NCBI RefSeq assembly: GCF_015169395.1
Contig: NZ_CP063458.1
Coordinates: 1,488,001-1,552,000, forward strand
DNA from: Humisphaera borealis
GTDB taxonomy: Bacteria; Planctomycetota; Phycisphaerae; Tepidisphaerales; Tepidisphaeraceae
Length of the DNA: 64,000 nt
Reading direction: 5' to 3'
A program made the translations under genes and the position numbers. Of this stretch, positions 35,508 through 43,043 are shown one piece after another; positions within the stretch are counted from its first letter, which is position 1, and each line of letters begins with the position of its first letter. The notes beneath the pieces are model-generated. The model had not been told where the DNA came from, did not search any database, and saw nothing but the letters and a program-made list of their open reading frames with translations.

Positions 35508-38500
35508 CTAATGGAAATCTCGCGACTTCGTCCGCAACCCGTCGACCAGGTGCGTCAGGTCTTCCATCTTCTTGACCATCACGTGAATGACCTCCCCCTG
35601 CCGTTCGACGATGCCCTGTGCTTCGACCATCACCGCGTAACGGGCGGCCTGCTTGTACTGGTCGTAGACCTTCGGCCGGACGATCAGGTTGACGATGCCG
35701 GTTTCGTCTTCCAGGGTTTCAAAGACGATGCCCGACGCCGTCCCCGGCCGCTGGCGGACCAGCACCAGCCCGGCGACGCGCACCCACTTGCCGTGCCGCT
35801 GCTGTTTCATCTCGGCCGCGGTGATGATCTTGCGGGCGGTCAGCTCCGGGCGAACAAGTGCCATTGGATGGCTCTTGAGCGACAAGCCGAAGGTGGTGTA
35901 GTCGGTCATGACTTCCTGGCCGAGAGGCATGGGAGGAAGGCACGAAGGAGCGGGCAGAGATGGAGGCACAGAGACACGTGGGCTCGAAGGAGAAGAAGGC
36001 CATTTCAACCCTTCGTGCCTCAGTGCCTCCGTGCCTTCGTGCCTCTCGTTCAATACGAGCTCTCTTTCCCACTGCTCAAACAGCGGCGCTTCTTCCGCTT
36101 CCAATCCCAGCACCTGCCAGAGCGCTTCGCGGCGCGGTAACCCCATTGATCCGAAAGCGTCGGCCTCGGCCAATCGTTGGAGCGCGGGCTTGGGGATGGC
36201 AGTGCGCAGCCGCAGTTCACGAATGGAGCGGAACGGGCCGTTTTGCTTGCGCTCCTTGACCAGCCGCATGACGTAGTCGGCGCGCAGCCCCTTGACCATT
36301 CGCATGCCCAGCCGAATAGCGGGACCGCCAAGGCCCCACGTGTGGGGTGGGGTTGGAGGTACGGGAGGACGAAGGCATGAAGGATCGGTGTCCTGTGAGA
36401 CTTTGTCAGTGACACGGGCTTCCAGCCCGTGCGTGGTGCGTGGTGCTTCGGCAACTGTTGATTTCTCTACCTCGAGCGCATCACGCACGGGCTGGAAGCC
36501 CGTGTCACTGACGGAGCCGTTCGGACTTGAAAAGCCCACCCTCCGTGCCTCTGTGCCTTCGTGCCTTCCTACCAACACACAATCCCACTCACTGAAGTTC
36601 ACATCGATCGCCAGCACCGTGACCCCATGTTCCTGCGCATCACGGAGAATCTGGGCGGGCGCATAGAACCCCATCGGCTGACTGTTGATCAATGCCGCGG
36701 CGAACGCCGCCGGGTGGTATCGCTTGAGCCAGCAGGACACGTAAACCAGCAGTGCGAACGACGCGGCGTGGCTTTCGGGGAAGCCGTATTCGCCGAAGCC
36801 GCGGATCTGATCAAAGGTCTGCTCGGCGAACTGCTGCGTGTAATTGCGGGCGAGCATGCCGTTGATGATCTTGTCGCGGAACTCTTCGAGCTTGGCCGTC
36901 TTCCGCCAGGCCGCCATCGCCTTGCGAAGCTGGTCGGCTTCGTCGGCGCTGAATCCTGCGGCGACCATTGCCACCTTCATCGCCTGTTCCTGAAACAGCG
37001 GCACGCCCAGCGTTTTGTGCAATACGCTTCGAAGCGCCTCACTGGGGTAAGTGACTTCCTCCTCCCCGCTCCGCCGGCGCAGATACGGATGCACCATGTT
37101 CCCCTGGATCGGCCCGGGCCGGACAATCGCAACTTCGATCACCAGATCATAAAAGCACTGCGGCCGAAGACGCGGAAGCATCGACATCTGCGCGCGGCTT
37201 TCGATCTGAAAAACACCAATCGTATCGGCCCGGCAGATCATGTCGTAGACGACGGGGTCGATAGGCTTGAAATGGTGGAGCTCTAGAGGAGAGGCACGAA
37301 GGCACGAAGGCACGGAGGCACGAAGTGGAATTATCGCTTCGACCTCGAAGCTCTGACGGCACGGATCAGGCCTTGGAGGATCCGATCTTCCTCTTCGAGC
37401 AACGCCAAAATCGCGCGATCGAATGGAATCAACTCCAGTTCGACCGTCACCAGTTCCCACTGTGTCTGCAGTTCTGCCAGTGAACCCCGGGAGATTCGCA
37501 GGTGTTTCAGGTAGGCCTTCTTGCTCTCCAGCGCATATCCCTCGGCAATGTTCGATGGTATTGATACTGCCGCGCGGCGCATTTGACTCGTCAGTCCAAA
37601 CTGCTCCTCCCGCGGCATGCTCTGAGTAGCGATGTAGATCGCTTTCGACAGCTTCATTCCCTTCTGCCAAGCGATCAGATCCCGGTAAGTCCGTATCACA
37701 GCCATTTGCCACCTTCCCTTTACACCCTTGGTATACAGCGTCCGCGCAAACAGAATGTATCAAATCTCCTTCGTGCCTTCGTGCCTCCGTGCCTCCGTGC
37801 CTTCCTTCTATCATCGCGAACGCCTTCGAAATACACGTCAGCATCCCCAGCGCCAGCACATCCACCTTCAGCATTCCCACCGTGTCGATGTCGTCCTTGT
37901 CCCACTCGATGACCGTGCGGTCAATCATGCTGGCGTTCTCGATGGGGACCATTTCGCACAGGGGCGTTTGCGTCATGATCAGGCCGCCAACGTGCTGGCC
38001 CAGGTGCCGGGGGAAGCCGAGCAACTGGCTGGTGATGTTGACGACCTGGCGGATGGTGCGGTCGGTGGGGTCGAGGTTGATCGCGCGGAGCTGATCGTCG
38101 GTCATCGCGCCGGCGCTCCAGCCGTCGAGCCGCTTAGCCATCTGGTCCACGAGGTCGAGGCTCAGGCCCAGCGCCTTGCCCACGTCGCGGACGGCGGAGC
38201 GGCCGCGATAGGTGATGACCTCCGCCGTCATGCCGACGCGCTGCCGGCCGTACTTCTGGTAGACGTACTGGATGACCTCCTCCCGCCGTTCGTGCTCGAA
38301 ATCGACATCGATATCCGGCGGCTCTTTCCGCGCGGCTGATACGAACCGCTCGAACAGCAGGTCGATCTCGGTCGGGTCGACGGATGTCACGCCGAGGCAA
38401 TAGCAGACCGCGGAATTGGCCGCCGAGCCTCGGCCCTGGCACAGGATGCCGCGCGAGCGGGCGAAGACGACGATGTCATGTACAGTGAGAAAATAGGCCT

Positions 38501-39521
38501 CGTACTTGAGCTGCGCGATCAGCTTCAGCTCGTGCTCGACCAGGGCCCGCACCTTGGGCGATGTGCCCTGCGGGTAGCGTTTCAGCAGGCCGGCTTCGGT
38601 CAGGTTGCGCAGGTGCTGCGTGATGCTGACGCCGGCGGGCACCAGTTCCTGTGGATACTCGTAACGCAGCTCGTCGAGCGTGAAGGTGCAGCGGTTGGCG
38701 ATCTGTACGCCGCGATCGATCGCCCCGGGAATGGCGGCGAAGACGTGATGCATCTGCGCCGGCGACTTCAGGTATCGCTCGCCGTTGGGGAACAGGCGAT
38801 AGCCGGCGTCGTGCAAGGTGCAGAGATGGCGGACACAGGTCAGGACATCCTGCAGCGCCCGACGGCCGGGCTCGTGGTAGTGGACGTCGTTCGTCGCCAG
38901 CAGCGGAACGCCCGTCGCAGCCGACAACTCCGTCAGTTCGCGCAGGCGGAATCGTTCGGTGCCCTGGTAGAGACAACTGGTGGCGATGGAAAGCCGATCG
39001 GCCTGTGGGCCGCCGGCGGCATCGCGCAGGCGGGCGATGATGGGTTCGATCATGTCGTCCAGCGGTTCTGGCGGGACGATCGCCGCGAGCAGGCCGGGTG
39101 CTTCGGCGAGCGCAACCAACAGGTCGGCCAGCCAGAGGGCGCAGTGGCCTTTTTCGGCCCGGCGCTTACCGGTGGTCAGCAGCCGGCAGAGCCGGGCATA
39201 CGCCGGGCGGTCGGCAGTCCAAAGCAGGACGTCGGGGCAGTCGTTGAAGACCAGGCGAACGCCGATGACCAGTTTTAAGCCGCACTTGGTCGCCGCCTCG
39301 TGCATGCGAACGATGCCGGCGAGGGTGTTGCGGTCGGTGACGGCGATCGCACGGTAGCCCAGCGCGGCGGCCTGGAAGACCAGCTCGTCCGCGTGCGACG
39401 CCCCGCGCAACAGCGAGAAGTTAGTCGTTACCTGCAGTTCGGCGTACGCCTGCGCCGCCGGCACAAGCTGCGCCGGCGGATCGGGGGCGATGCGGGATTT
39501 GGGGTTGGTGGGATCGGGCAT
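35508..39521 (-). CDS. dnaE2: Error-prone DNA polymerase DnaE2 (ImuC) with three in-frame inserts
   Basis: A 1337-residue C-family polymerase. PHP domain (residues 25-240), polymerase core with RGSAANS, PPDIDVDFEHERR, TVGMLKVDVLALGML and FPESHAASFALLVYVSCWL, and a C-terminal OB domain (WVRVAGLVLVRQRPGTA). Usual DnaE2 length is 1030-1080 residues. The excess lies in three repeat-derived inserts at about residues 574-743, 985-1053 and 1159-1197, which translate as Arg/Glu/His- or Ser/Pro-rich sequence (RHGGTEARRHEG, LRASVPSCLRA) and interrupt otherwise conserved sequence. All keep the frame open, so a full product is possible. With ImuA and ImuB it forms the damage-induced translesion mutasome. 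Confidence 0.93.
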   Translation of the reverse strand: MPDPTNPKSRIAPDPPAQLVPAAQAYAELQVTTNFSLLRGASHADELVFQAAALGYRAIAVTDRNTLAGIVRMHEAATKCGLKLVIGVRLVFNDCPDVLLWTADRPAYARLCRLLTTGKRRAEKGHCALWLADLLVALAEAPGLLAAIVPPEPLDDMIEPIIARLRDAAGGPQADRLSIATSCLYQGTERFRLRELTELSAATGVPLLATNDVHYHEPGRRALQDVLTCVRHLCTLHDAGYRLFPNGERYLKSPAQMHHVFAAIPGAIDRGVQIANRCTFTLDELRYEYPQELVPAGVSITQHLRNLTEAGLLKRYPQGTSPKVRALVEHELKLIAQLKYEAYFLTVHDIVVFARSRGILCQGRGSAANSAVCYCLGVTSVDPTEIDLLFERFVSAARKEPPDIDVDFEHERREEVIQYVYQKYGRQRVGMTAEVITYRGRSAVRDVGKALGLSLDLVDQMAKRLDGWSAGAMTDDQLRAINLDPTDRTIRQVVNITSQLLGFPRHLGQHVGGLIMTQTPLCEMVPIENASMIDRTVIEWDKDDIDTVGMLKVDVLALGMLTCISKAFAMIEGRHGGTEARRHEGDLIHSVCADAVYQGCKGKVANGCDTDLPGSDRLAEGNEAVESDLHRYSEHAAGGAVWTDESNAPRGSINTIEHCRGICAGEQEGLPETPANLPGFTGRTADTVGTGDGRTGVDSIRSRDFGVARRGRSDPPRPDPCRQSFEVEAIIPLRASVPSCLRASPLELHHFKPIDPVVYDMICRADTIGVFQIESRAQMSMLPRLRPQCFYDLVIEVAIVRPGPIQGNMVHPYLRRRSGEEEVTYPSEALRSVLHKTLGVPLFQEQAMKVAMVAAGFSADEADQLRKAMAAWRKTAKLEEFRDKIINGMLARNYTQQFAEQTFDQIRGFGEYGFPESHAASFALLVYVSCWLKRYHPAAFAAALINSQPMGFYAPAQILRDAQEHGVTVLAIDVNFSEWDCVLVGRHEGTEARRVGFSSPNGSVSDTGFQPVRDALEVEKSTVAEAPRTTHGLEARVTDKVSQDTDPSCLRPPVPPTPPHTWGLGGPAIRLGMRMVKGLRADYVMRLVKERKQNGPFRSIRELRLRTAIPKPALQRLAEADAFGSMGLPRREALWQVLGLEAEEAPLFEQWERELVLNERHEGTEALRHEGLKWPSSPSSPRVSVPPSLPAPSCLPPMPLGQEVMTDYTTFGLSLKSHPMALVRPELTARKIITAAEMKQQRHGKWVRVAGLVLVRQRPGTASGIVFETLEDETGIVNLIVRPKVYDQYKQAARYAVMVEAQGIVERQGEVIHVMVKKMEDLTHLVDGLRTKSRDFH
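35931..36047. repeat. CACGAAG-type inverted repeat inserted in dnaE2 (insert 3)
   Basis: The left arm begins GGAGGAAGGCACGAAGG and the right arm ends in the complementary units GTGCCTTCGTGCCTCTC. The spacer is about 60 bases. It is read through in the dnaE2 frame as a Pro/Ser-rich segment between the VLNER and LGQEVMTDYTTFGLSLKSHP parts of the polymerase. Confidence 0.75.
36363..36569. repeat. Nested inverted repeats inserted in dnaE2 (insert 2)
   Basis: The outer arms are degenerate GGCACGAA/TTCGTGCC units (about 36363-36383 and 36540-36569). The inner arms, 36405-36435 and 36482-36512, are perfect 31-base complements around a 46-base loop. Each contains GACACGGGCTTCCAGCCCGT, itself a near-palindrome. 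In the dnaE2 frame they read as SDTGFQPV and LEARVTD. Confidence 0.9.
37293..37801 (-). mobile_element. Inverted-repeat element carrying an S23-type gene, inserted in dnaE2 (insert 1)
   Basis: Terminal arms 37293-37325 and 37769-37801 pair at 30 of 33 positions. They are built from tandem 8-base units GGCACGAA/GGCACGGA. The interior holds the four-helix-bundle gene (37331-37705), with its own Shine-Dalgarno sequence, in a frame different from dnaE2. The insert falls exactly between the conserved DnaE2 segments CISKAFAMIE and LHHFKPIDPVVYDM. The design, inverted repeats with an S23 ORF in the loop, matches 23S rRNA intervening sequences. I see no target duplication and no transposase. Confidence 0.75.
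37331..37705 (-). CDS. Four helix bundle protein, S23/IVP family, nested in dnaE2
   Basis: A 124-residue protein of the 23S rRNA intervening-sequence family (TIGR02436/PF05635). YRDLIAWQKGMKLSKAIY opens helix 1. FGLTSQMRRAAVSIPSNIAEGYA is the family hallmark (split here as FGLTSQMRRAAVSI and PSNIAEGYA), followed by LKHLRISRGSLAELQT. It is on the same strand as dnaE2 but shifted by one frame. AAAGGGAAGG stands just upstream of the ATG. The family's role is unknown. Relatives are encoded in rRNA intervening sequences, and the Avd protein of diversity-generating retroelements is structurally similar. No reverse transcriptase is nearby. Confidence 0.88.
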   Translation of the reverse strand: MAVIRTYRDLIAWQKGMKLSKAIYIATQSMPREEQFGLTSQMRRAAVSIPSNIAEGYALESKKAYLKHLRISRGSLAELQTQWELVTVELELIPFDRAILALLEEEDRILQGLIRAVRASRSKR

Positions 39522-39547
39522 GGGTGTCGTAAAGGGACACTTCCTGC

Positions 39548-39857
39548 CAGACCGGATTCACCACGAAGACACGAAGGGCACGAAGGAACACAAGAGGAGC
39601 GAATCTGTCAGAAGCAGGCCAATTCTCTCGTTGTCATCCTGGGGTACTCCGAAGGACCTTGTAAACTGCAGTCCATGCGACGATGTCGAATCGCTATCGC
39701 ACCGGATCGGTATCGAAAGTCTTCTCGCCTCAGATACAAGGTCCTTCGGAGTACCTCAGGATGACAAATGTGCGTGGAGATTATCTCCCCTCATATCTCT
39801 TCTTCGTGTTCTTCGTGTTCTTCGTGCCTTTCGTGCCTTCGTGGTGAATCCGGTCTG
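39548..39857. repeat. Two nested inverted repeats between imuB and dnaE2
   Basis: The outer arms begin CAGACCGGATTCACCACGAAG at 39548 and end with the complement at 39857, continuing as CACGAAG-type units. The inner arms 39633-39662 and 39736-39765 pair at 29 of 30 positions (core GGTACTCCGAAGGACCTTGT). This 310-base structure fills nearly the whole gap between the two genes, which otherwise holds nothing recognisable. Confidence 0.9.
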
Positions 39858-39882
39858 ACAAAGGTGTGACCATCGCTGTGTG

Positions 39883-42108
39883 TCAATCCCAGTCTCCGTG
39901 CAAAAACCACCGTCCCGTCTGCGGGACGCGGAAGACCCAGAAGCGTTTGCCCTCGGCGGTTTCGATGTCGTAATAGTCGCGTGTTTTGTCTCGCCCTTCC
40001 CACCACATCGGGGCGACGCGCTCGGGGCCGATCGTGTGCAGGACGCGATAGGTCTCCCGTCCGTCGGCGAATGTCATCGGCCATTGCTCTTCACCCGGCT
40101 CGCCGGAGGCGGACATCACCCGTAGTTCCCGCGGCGTGGGCAACAGACGCACCGGCCGGGCCGCCAGCGGGATGTGCGACGATGACTCATCGGGCGCGGC
40201 AATCTGCGGCGTGTCGGTGCGATCGGGATCGTCGGCGCCTTCCGGCAGGTCGGGGATGACCGGTCGCCAGTCAGCGAAGGGATCGGCCAGGCGCAGGGGC
40301 GAATCCGAGGATGGAGGAGGAGAAGCCAAGACTGAAGGATGAGGGATGAAGGATGAAACGCCGGAGGGCTCGGGTGCCATGGGCTGGCGTACTCGCCTGT
40401 CCGTGGCGGGTTTGCGTAACGCGGCGGCTACGGGCAGCGGAGTACCGCAGCCCATGGCACCCGGATTTTCTGCGTTCCTTTCATTCGCCGCCTGCATACG
40501 TCTTGGTGCCCGTCCGTACGTCCGTGACTTGCCCCGCCGCTTCGTCTTTTTCTGTAACGGCGTGACCTCGACCGGCGTCAAATCCGCCCGCACGCCATCG
40601 ATCGTTTTATACGCCCGCTCGGGCAGGTGGCATTCGTGAAGCATCATCCTGACGACCGACTGCGGACCGAGACGAACACTTAAGACTTCCACCAGCCTCG
40701 CGACTTCCCCCGCCGACGCCTGCTCGCATTGGCCGTCCATCGCCCACTGTTCGTCGGCGATCCGCTCCCACGCGGGTGCCGCCAGCGAAATCGCGATGAA
40801 GCCGTCGCAGTGAAAGCCATCGGCGGCGTGGTTGATGTCTTTGCCGTCGCGGACATCCAGGTTCTCCGTCGCGCAGCGGAGTAAGCCGAAGAGATTCTTC
40901 GCCTCCCGCGATGCCTTCGACAGCAGGATCGTTCGCGTGACCGGCGGCGAGTAAGCCCGGCGGAACTCGGCTTCCACCCGTCTGGCCCCCCCGCCGACGC
41001 GGGCTAACTGCTGCGTCAGTTCGTCGACCAGCCGGCGGAGCACTTCCCAGATCGCTTCGATCGCCGTCACCGCGCCGTCGAACTCCATCACGGCGCGGAG
41101 GGGCGTGCGGAACTCCAGCGGGCGGAGCATTTCCGGGGCTCGTCCGAGCAACTGATCGATCCGCAGCAGAACTTCCGGCCCGAAGCGGTCCAGCAGCGAC
41201 GGCCGATCGAGCGCCAGCAGTTGGCCGATGGTTTCTACGCCGAGATGGTGCAGGGTGAGGAGGGTGGATGAAGCAAGGCGAAGGGAGGTTGTGGGAAGAA
41301 GGCTGAGGGATGAAGGCCGAAGGATGAAGGGGGAAGCAGGCGGCGTTGTGGGGGCGCTCGATTCGAGTGCCATGGGCTGCGGTACGCCGCTGCCCGTGGC
41401 GGGCGTGGCTGCCGTGACGCCGCCACGGGCAGGCGAGTACGCCAGCCCATGGCACCCGAGGCTTGCCGATTCGGATGCGGGCGCAAGGCCCGTGTCGCGG
41501 ACGATGCCATGGGTCATCGCCCAGGCTGCGCCGATCGTCGGGGCGACGGCGACCCTTGCCGTGATGCGCATCCGCTGCAGAACATCGACCACGCGCCGTC
41601 GAATCGGCTCGATCCCGCCGAACAGCCGTTCGCAGCCGGTCAGATCGATCAGCAGGCGGTCGGGGGATTCGACGGCGACGACGGGGCTGAAGCGGGTCAT
41701 CCAGCGGCCGAGGGCCTCGAGCGCCCGGCGGTCGAGATCCGGATCGGCCGGGGCGTGCGTCAGACCCGGACACATCGTCCGCGCCTCGGCGAGTGTCATG
41801 CCAATGCGGATGCCCGCCGCCCGGGATTGCTCGCAGGCGGTCGTGACGAGTTGCCGGGAGGCGACATCTTGGAAGAGAACGAGGGGATGATTGACAGTCG
41901 ATCGTCGAGGATCGATCGGGGGAGATTGGCGGCTGGGTGGCATGGGCAAGCGTACTCGCTTGCCCATGCCACCCATCGCTTCACGCCGTTCGCGCTGCCG
42001 CGCCCTGCGCAGCCGGTCGATCGGCCATTGGATCAATCGCACGCACAGGATGTGGCGCGGGGAAAGGGGATGGACTTCCGTCGGGTTCGGTTGTTCGTAC
42101 GACTTCAC
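39883..42108 (-). CDS. imuB: DNA polymerase Y-family protein ImuB, with palindromic inserts
   Basis: A 741-residue catalytically inactive Y-family polymerase that links the sliding clamp, ImuA and DnaE2. The N-terminus HILCVRLIQWPIDRLRRARQ is typical. PLVLFQDVASRQLVTTACEQSRAAGIRIGM follows in two conserved pieces separated by a repeat insert. The fingers/thumb segments include LGVETIGQLLALDRPSLLDRFG, and the tail contains RPVRLLPTPRELRVM and YRVLHTIGPERVAPMWWEG. Homologues are about 480-530 residues long. The excess corresponds to inserts at about residues 46-58, 200-250 and 530-600. The start is GTG 42108 with GGAGG seven bases upstream, inside imuA. Confidence 0.92.
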   Translation of the reverse strand: MKSYEQPNPTEVHPLSPRHILCVRLIQWPIDRLRRARQRERREAMGGMGKRVRLPMPPSRQSPPIDPRRSTVNHPLVLFQDVASRQLVTTACEQSRAAGIRIGMTLAEARTMCPGLTHAPADPDLDRRALEALGRWMTRFSPVVAVESPDRLLIDLTGCERLFGGIEPIRRRVVDVLQRMRITARVAVAPTIGAAWAMTHGIVRDTGLAPASESASLGCHGLAYSPARGGVTAATPATGSGVPQPMALESSAPTTPPASPFILRPSSLSLLPTTSLRLASSTLLTLHHLGVETIGQLLALDRPSLLDRFGPEVLLRIDQLLGRAPEMLRPLEFRTPLRAVMEFDGAVTAIEAIWEVLRRLVDELTQQLARVGGGARRVEAEFRRAYSPPVTRTILLSKASREAKNLFGLLRCATENLDVRDGKDINHAADGFHCDGFIAISLAAPAWERIADEQWAMDGQCEQASAGEVARLVEVLSVRLGPQSVVRMMLHECHLPERAYKTIDGVRADLTPVEVTPLQKKTKRRGKSRTYGRAPRRMQAANERNAENPGAMGCGTPLPVAAALRKPATDRRVRQPMAPEPSGVSSFIPHPSVLASPPPSSDSPLRLADPFADWRPVIPDLPEGADDPDRTDTPQIAAPDESSSHIPLAARPVRLLPTPRELRVMSASGEPGEEQWPMTFADGRETYRVLHTIGPERVAPMWWEGRDKTRDYYDIETAEGKRFWVFRVPQTGRWFLHGDWD
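40372..40462. repeat. Palindromic insert in imuB, GGGTGCCATGGGC family (copy 1)
   Basis: The arms begin GGGTGCCATGGGCTGGCG at 40372 and end with the complement of GGGTGCCATGGGCTGCGG at 40462. It is related to the copies at 41367-41455 and 41935-41974. AAGGATGAA-type repeats flank it on the left at about 40330-40357. It is read through by imuB in a Pro/Ser/Arg-rich segment between two conserved parts of the C-terminal region. Confidence 0.85.
41367..41455. repeat. Palindromic insert in imuB, GTGCCATGGGC family (copy 2)
   Basis: Two 36-base arms (41367-41402 and 41420-41455) pair at 31 of 36 positions. Four of the mismatches are CG/GC swaps that look like compensating changes. AAGGATGAA-like units lie beside it at about 41266-41335. 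It is located between the palm part ending AWAMTHGIVRD and LPTTSLRLASSTLLTLHHLG of ImuB. Confidence 0.88.
41935..41974. repeat. Perfect 18-bp palindrome in imuB near its N-terminus (copy 3)
   Basis: The arms GGGTGGCATGGGCAAGCG (41935-41952) and their exact complement (41957-41974) flank a TACT loop. In the imuB frame the palindrome reads GGMGKRVRLPMPP, between RLRRARQRERREA and the conserved PLVLFQD. It shares CATGGGC and GTACTCGC with the two larger copies. Confidence 0.92.
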
Positions 42109-42871
42109 GGCTCACCTCCAGGATGATGGCCTGGCGTAGTCGCCCTCCGTGGCCGTGAACGAGTTCCACTCTCCAACGCTGACTTGCTGCGTAGGGGCAC
42201 ACGACCGTGTGCCCGTGACGAATCACCGGCGAATCGGGCACACGGCCGTGTGTCCCTACAGAGGGTTCGGGCCGCACGAGCCATCTTGTGGCGGCGGCGT
42301 AGTCGGCGGCGTTGTGGTCGGACCGCAGCAGCAATCCGGTGCCGCCGCCCTTCTCGACCGCCAGTTGCAGCCGTCGGGCCTGCACGCGATTGAGCCGCCC
42401 CGGCTCGACGATCGTGACGGCGACGCCCTGGCAGCGCATGCACTGCGTCGCCGCCCAGAGCTCGTCCGCCGGCGACCTGGGCCGCAGGATCAGCAGCCGA
42501 TCCAAAGGCAGCCCGGCCCGTGCGATCGCCGGCGGGTAGAGCGTGGCCTGCGGGTCGCTCCAGATGACCGGTCCGGCCCGTGCTCGCGCCGCCGCGATCG
42601 CCAGCAGCAACGCGAACGTTCGCGGCGGCGAACCCCGGGGCGGGTAGAGCAGTTCGTGCACCACGCCCAGTTCGAACGCGCCGCCGGGCGCTGCCGCATC
42701 GAGCAGTGCCAGCCCGGTCTGGAACGTTCCCGGCCTGGCAGGTGAAGCTGCCACGCCGTCGGCCCAATCCGGCTCGGCAAGGGTCAGGTCGGCGGGTTCT
42801 GCCGATCTTCCCCGCAATCCGTCCACGCGAACGGTGCGAAGGATGCCTTGATGGGCAGTTACAATCTTCAT
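41981..42871 (-). CDS. imuA: ImuA (RecA-like mutasome protein) with palindromic insert
   Basis: A 296-residue RecA-superfamily protein of the translesion cassette. LLDAAAPGGAFELGVVHELL marks the region where RecA has Walker A, here without the GKT/S core as in most ImuA proteins. VIWSDPQATLYPPAIARAG, RLLILRPRSPADELWAATQCMR and the C-terminal QRWRVELVHGHGG are family segments. The last 50 residues extend beyond the usual end and overlap imuB by 128 bases. A hairpin insert lies at about residues 205-227. ATG 42871 is supported by GGAG eight bases upstream, and GTG 42877 is an alternative. Confidence 0.87.
   Translation of the reverse strand: MKIVTAHQGILRTVRVDGLRGRSAEPADLTLAEPDWADGVAASPARPGTFQTGLALLDAAAPGGAFELGVVHELLYPPRGSPPRTFALLLAIAAARARAGPVIWSDPQATLYPPAIARAGLPLDRLLILRPRSPADELWAATQCMRCQGVAVTIVEPGRLNRVQARRLQLAVEKGGGTGLLLRSDHNAADYAAATRWLVRPEPSVGTHGRVPDSPVIRHGHTVVCPYAASQRWRVELVHGHGGRLRQAIILEVSREVVRTTEPDGSPSPFPAPHPVRAIDPMADRPAAQGAAARTA
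42191..42259. repeat. Inverted repeat inserted in imuA
   Basis: Two 25-base arms (42191-42215 and 42235-42259) pair at 23 of 25 positions around 19 bases. Each arm holds an internal palindrome built on GGGCACACG and CGTGTGCCC. In the ImuA frame it encodes the segment from GTHGRVPDSP to RHGHTVVCPY, between WLVRPEP and QRWRVEL. Confidence 0.88.
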
Positions 42872-43043
42872 GGCCACGACTCCATTGTTAGGTTAATGGA
42901 CGGATCGCGGCAACGTCAAATATTGGCCGAAATGTGAGTTCAACAGCCGTCAAACACGCCGAGATCATTCGTGGCGAAGCCAACGAGGTACCCACGACGG
43001 GAAAAGCAATGCTACTGCCCGATGTTTGGATGACTGTCCGGGG

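Follow-up and report, generated by a model that had tools for sequence, protein, structure and literature searches.

The imuB gene of the planctomycete Humisphaera borealis encodes a protein of 741 aa, as against 499-529 aa in its shortest same-family relatives, and its reading frame runs through three DNA palindromes. The question is whether these palindromes serve the protein, serve the gene as a regulatory structure, or are mobile DNA that came to lie within a coding sequence. REP and REPIN elements are usually located between genes. In the REPINs described by Bertels and Rainey (2011, PMC3116915), two inverted REPs are separated by a short spacer and the cognate RAYT (REP-associated tyrosine transposase) is bracketed by REPs. 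The sections of Di Nocera et al. (2013, PMC3733652) used here, to which every mention of that paper below refers, take a RAYT bracketed by inverted REPs as the arrangement that defines a REP/RAYT pair, report REPs in Planctomycetes, and place GTAG/CGTC REPs and their dimers within ORFs, many of these REPs in genes for DNA synthesis and repair, with a REP-tagged DnaE2 included and some genes hit twice. Because of that work, the class of element and its intragenic life are already known.

Sequences and comparisons

The window, that is, the whole stretch of DNA analysed, comprises 64,000 nt of H. borealis (NZ_CP063458.1, positions 1,488,001-1,552,000, forward strand), and was compared with the 7.19-Mb genome from which it comes and with 25 relatives from the same family, the Tepidisphaeraceae. 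Genes were ranked by repeat content across 2.464 Mb (34% of the genome), in which a home-made hexamer caller found 1,872 genes. The k-mers used were those repeated in noncoding DNA; the ranking was redone in this way because the lower-ranked genes in a first k-mer ranking were mostly GC-rich codon repeats. Some weak rows of the ranking may still reflect chance or simple repetition, for instance the HrpB-like L088 and the repeats of L168. ImuB proteins from GTDB were scanned with a narrower alignment; the broad ImuB alignment held no stretch conserved enough to scan.

Results

The imuB ORF (39883-42108, minus strand; Pfam IMS, E=3.4e-18) lies between imuA and dnaE2. Its product is 30-46% identical to the ImuB of relatives, and the IMS domain, the ImuB C-terminal domain and the imuA-imuB-dnaE2 neighbourhood are all present. 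The original prediction placed at least three in-frame palindromes of one sequence family in this gene, and the three that it located were found at their stated positions, with the ORF open through each. Two are imperfect inverted repeats, at 40371-40463 (37-nt arms, 84% complementary) and 41363-41459 (40-nt arms, 85% complementary). The third had been described as a perfect 18-bp hairpin with a TACT loop; the hairpin is perfect and the 4-nt loop reads TACT on the plus strand, but the stem measures 19 bp. Codon-shuffled versions of imuB contain on average 0.04 inverted repeats of such strength, against three in the real gene, and the single-strand DNA folding z-scores of the palindromes are -4.7, -6.3 and -11.6.

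The three copies form one superfamily but not a single family, since two are REPINs of a family that we call F1 and one is a REP of a second family, F2. The first REPIN (40372-40462, plus strand, 91 bp, GGGTGCC...GGCACCC) has arm a followed by arm b and encodes ImuB residues ~549-579, in an interdomain linker. The second (41365-41457, minus strand, 93 bp) has the opposite orientation, with b before a on the plus strand, and encodes residues ~217-248. The single F2 REP (41934-41975), with its 19-bp stem, encodes residues ~45-58.

The excess length of ImuB, put at about 220 residues and attributed to the inserts, agrees with the ~219 aa of non-core segments in the alignment with relatives, but the palindromes encode only ~77 of these, the remainder being heptamer-derived or unidentified filler. 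As predicted, AAGGATGAA-type repeats accompany the first two palindromes: a repeat search found AAGGATG heptamer arrays to the left of both, a degenerate one at 40328-40357 and another at 41299-41328 (both plus strand). The AAGGATG motif occurs elsewhere too, for example within a MiaB-like and an RluD-like gene.

The palindromes are copies of two related families dispersed across the genome. The 22-nt F1 core GTGCCATGGGCTGGCGTACTCG has ~112 matches in the 7.19-Mb genome at up to 3 mismatches, and its reversed control has none. Arms listed in the sampled sequence fall into the two sister families. F1 carries the tag GTGC and forms a head-to-head dimer, usually of 91 or 94 bp; throughout the genome almost every F1 REPIN combines one arm a (GGCG-TACT-CGCC) with one arm b (GCGG-TACT-CCGC). 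F2 carries the tag GTGG, its arms are AAGCG-TACT-CGCTT and AACGG-TACT-CCGTT, and its dimer is usually 90 bp; single perfect F2 hairpins like the imuB copy are rarer than dimers. The sample holds 35 head-to-head REPINs with conserved spacing (89-95 bp), and since every arm is a hairpin by itself, the elements fit the REPIN definition of Bertels and Rainey (PMC3116915). The tag before the hairpin reads GTGC in F1, GTGG in F2, GTGA in F3 and GTAG in F5; that the F1 and F2 tags differ from the canonical GTAG is a point against reading these two families as REPs.

Most F1 and F2 copies are intergenic. The F1 arm-b sequence has 51 copies in H. borealis and one in the 25 relatives, and F1 being virtually absent from these, the insertions in imuB are taken to be recent. 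REPINs are open in 4.6 of six frames, as compared with 3.1 for shuffled sequences. Since most F1 elements measure 91 or 94 bp (1 mod 3), a clean insertion would shift the frame, and the copies in imuB require the assumption that later changes restored the frame or that the elements entered older filler.

The H. borealis genome contains 11 Y1-transposase genes. One of these, L040 (G000:C1:1060493-1060708), scores 88.6 against REP_Tyr_transpos, where the curated cut-off is 80, and lies between two F1 arm-b REPs that form a perfect inverted pair of 37 nt, head-to-head, an arrangement that marks it as the likely cognate transposase of F1. No RAYT bracketed by F2 REPs was found in this genome. A second RAYT, L034 (G000:C1:3414568-3417792), is bracketed by REPs of F3, a family also present in dnaE2, and this complete gene, F3 REPs included, lies in frame within an ORF for a YoaA/DinG-like repair helicase of 935 aa. 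In L041 (G000:C1:928940-932101) a ThiD2-ThiE thiamine synthesis protein of 594 aa has a RAYT-like domain fused in frame at its C-terminus. Further RAYT genes (L035-L039) are each bracketed by a perfect inverted pair (20-27 nt) of different sequence, and the sequences flanking L035 and L039 are repeated families in the genome sample.

Alignment of ImuB with relatives defines four insert sites, A to D, at residues 37, 202, 420 and 508 of the H. borealis protein, of which A holds the F2 REP, and B and D hold the second and the first F1 REPIN. The sites are empty in most relatives and are filled by other palindromes in four; within the species itself no allele with an empty site was encountered. 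In one relative, G006, all four sites hold GGCACGAAGG-type arm segments, of which two were detected as inverted pairs. In G020 a GTAG-tagged pair occupies A and a different palindrome C, in G021 a GTAG-tagged pair occupies D, and in G004 a palindrome lies near A. The original prediction had held that homologues carrying the same segments, conserved as protein, would count against it; the homologues either lack the segments or carry unrelated palindromes, which makes a protein or RNA function of the inserts unlikely. In the GTDB scan 3 of 18 planctomycete ImuBs contained such palindromes, G020 and G021 being two of the three. Among 62 non-planctomycete ImuBs, two had weak inverted repeats, against one after shuffling, and these look like chance. 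A distant planctomycete ImuB (L274) has at residues 371-403 a perfect inverted repeat of 49 nt whose loop is a single nucleotide.

Structure prediction gave a core of pLDDT ~90 with confident Y-family and C-terminal domains, and modelled residues 203-261 and 506-649 as disordered at pLDDT 31-39, values that are expected there regardless, few homologues aligning in these regions and unaligned segments always scoring low. In the model, both long insert regions would be disordered loops between intact domains. The idea that the inserts form a protein-level domain was rejected on the alignment with relatives and on the predicted disorder.

Elements that the original prediction did not mention lie in both neighbours of imuB. 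The imuA ORF (41981-42877, minus strand; NCBIfam ImuA_translesion, 3.5e-24, below the curated cut-off) contains in frame a GTAG-tagged F5 REP pair at 42191-42259 (25-nt arms, 92% complementary), which encodes residues ~207-229. The dnaE2 ORF (35508-39521, minus strand, 1337 aa) contains at least four in-frame elements. Among them are paired GGCACGAAGG-type arms at 35931-36043, an F3 REPIN (GTGACACGGGCTTCCAGCCCGTG) at 36405-36512 that is apparently nested in a GGCACGAAGG-arm element, and an element with 49-nt inverted GGCACGAAGG-type arms at 37284-37810 (minus strand). The gap between imuB and dnaE2 holds an F4 palindrome pair (39631-39767) nested between ACCACGAAG arms (39545-39860).

The last of the dnaE2 elements listed encloses a gene for a 23S-rRNA-intervening-sequence protein (IVP, PF05635; 37331-37705, minus strand) in the +1 frame of dnaE2, and the dnaE2 frame is open across it. 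Three more genomes of the family (G006, G025 and G020; genes L248, L253 and L261) have the same arrangement at the same offset, and the four dnaE2-nested IVPs form one clade (support 0.98); the IVP within dnaE2 is a conserved nested overlapping gene. In this family, IVP genes (L082-L085, L236-L264) often lie inside inverted arms of degenerate 7-8-nt tandem repeats, the repeat differing for most genes; an arm score of at least 16 was reached by 18 of 33 IVP genes, against 2.2% of 580 control genes. Short pairs of IVP-like arms without a gene occur in priA, in dnaE1 and in the imuB of relatives, which suggests that IVP-type arms are mobile elements with IVP as their coding form. The AAGGATG arrays of imuB resemble the heptamer arms around IVP genes, but none of the IVP genes proved to have arms of AAGGATG, and a link between the two is only a suggestion.

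In the 2.464 Mb, repeat k-mers account for 8.2% of the noncoding DNA as against 0.16% of the coding DNA, and are thus ~50-fold rarer in genes. By in-gene repeat content imuB ranks first and the adjacent dnaE2 second among the 1,872 called genes; the stretch was picked by an earlier reader, yet the ranking spans all sampled genes. Five of 24 in-gene clusters fall in this adjacent pair, which was never reached in 20,000 length-proportional simulations, and a single gene with three in-gene clusters has p ~0.005. Taken as a region, with intergenic repeats included, the cassette reaches no higher than roughly the top 2.5% of regions of equal size, so that its unusual part is the repeats lying inside genes. 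Other genes with in-frame elements encode PriA, DnaE1 and PheS-like, MiaB-like and CapD-like proteins and glycosyltransferases.

Discussion

The imuB palindromes are very probably RAYT-type REP/REPINs, two F1 REPINs and one F2 REP, which entered the gene as separate and recent insertions and were retained. They would be miniature non-autonomous DNA hairpins of the sort that RAYT enzymes mobilise. F1 is probably mobilised by the L040 RAYT, its lineage specificity being an indirect sign of this, and F2 may be cross-mobilised or may have lost its RAYT. Once in place the elements would be kept neutrally in an ImuB that presumably still functions, surviving because they are poor in stop codons and because the final insertions are in frame and in surface loops between domains.

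The simplest reason for a hotspot in this operon would be tolerance, by damage-induced proteins, of insertion into large, little-constrained loops. It is also conceivable, though we think it improbable, that insertion is targeted, that is, that elements using single-stranded DNA prefer damage-induced repair genes because their transposition coincides with the SOS transcription of these genes. Elements in imuA, imuB, dnaE2, the L034 helicase gene, PriA and DnaE1 fit such a preference, as does a clustering in one adjacent gene pair that none of the simulations matched. Tolerance, however, yields an identical pattern, and CapD-like, PheS-like, MiaB-like and glycosyltransferase genes are hit too. 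An equally tentative proposal is that, in this planctomycete family, several unrelated mobile elements with hairpin ends use the SOS mutasome operon (imuA-imuB-dnaE2) as a preferred landing zone, and that they would have entered the same loops separately in different genera, since their single-strand transposition coincides with the damage-induced expression of these genes.

That selection keeps the hairpins as a DNA or RNA structure regulating imuB, through mRNA stability, translation attenuation or phase variation, is very unlikely. Predicted folding is strong and the arm hairpins carry compensatory changes, and in the 41363-41459 copy four of the arm mismatches, which had been taken as a hint of selection or gene conversion on structure, are indeed visible by eye as C/G swaps. 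These swaps, however, are the difference between arms a and b and are common genome-wide. Across 64 distinct arms, stem pairs 2 and 11-13 covary (inner pairs, permutation p<=0.0005, a test that ignores relatedness among arms and so overstates their independence), pairs 11-13 varying as A-T/G-C and G-C/C-G, and the compensation lies inside each arm's own small hairpin. It belongs to the whole, mostly intergenic family rather than to imuB. Moreover, the sites are without hairpins in most relatives and have unrelated ones in others, and three elements across three different loops would be an odd regulatory design.

A function of the encoded peptides in ImuB, which the maintained open frames and the use of the same loops by several relatives might favour, is less credible still, as the reading frame differs between the two F1 copies, their peptides are unlike, and the insert regions are modelled as disordered and lack conservation. 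The least plausible source of the two F1 copies is a duplication or gene conversion local to imuB, for which their 41-nt arms, 98% complementary between the copies, could be cited; it is largely refuted, since at 84.9% identity the copies are no more alike than F1 copies in general (mean 84.2%), each is nearer to copies elsewhere (89-90%), and their opposite orientation and unrelated spacers point instead to separate insertions.

As separately inserted REPINs, the imuB elements resemble those of Bertels and Rainey (PMC3116915) in their dimer layout, in a copy number of tens to more than 100 and in a REP-bracketed RAYT. They differ in their planctomycete host, in the tags GTGC and GTGG, in the constant pairing of two compensatory hairpin variants as the arms of a heterodimer, and in having three in-frame insertions in one gene. 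With the intragenic REPs of Di Nocera et al. (PMC3733652) they share REPs and dimers in ORFs and an affected DnaE2; different from what is described there are the presence in a single operon of at least five elements, drawn from several unrelated families, and the fact that in relatives other families occupy the same protein loops. The same paper describes Rickettsia palindromic elements as palindromic repeats translated in frame within conserved genes, and by that description alone the present elements are alike, although the phylum differs and F1 has a cognate RAYT. No prior report of an imuB with REPs was found in the literature searched, those sections of PMC3733652 included, which is weak evidence of absence; in that literature we likewise found no description of insertions in imuB at such density, or of unrelated families that reuse one set of loops.

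An odd long gene thus becomes a readable record of transposition, in one lineage and with the likely transposase at hand, several genera having acquired elements in the loops of ImuB independently. An extra segment in a repair protein of a planctomycete can stem from mobile DNA and need not be a domain. The concentration in a mutagenesis operon allows one to ask whether DNA-damage genes are targeted by single-strand transposition or merely tolerant of it, and, if the landing-zone reading were true, mobile elements would time and again reshape the very machinery by which the mutation rate is set.
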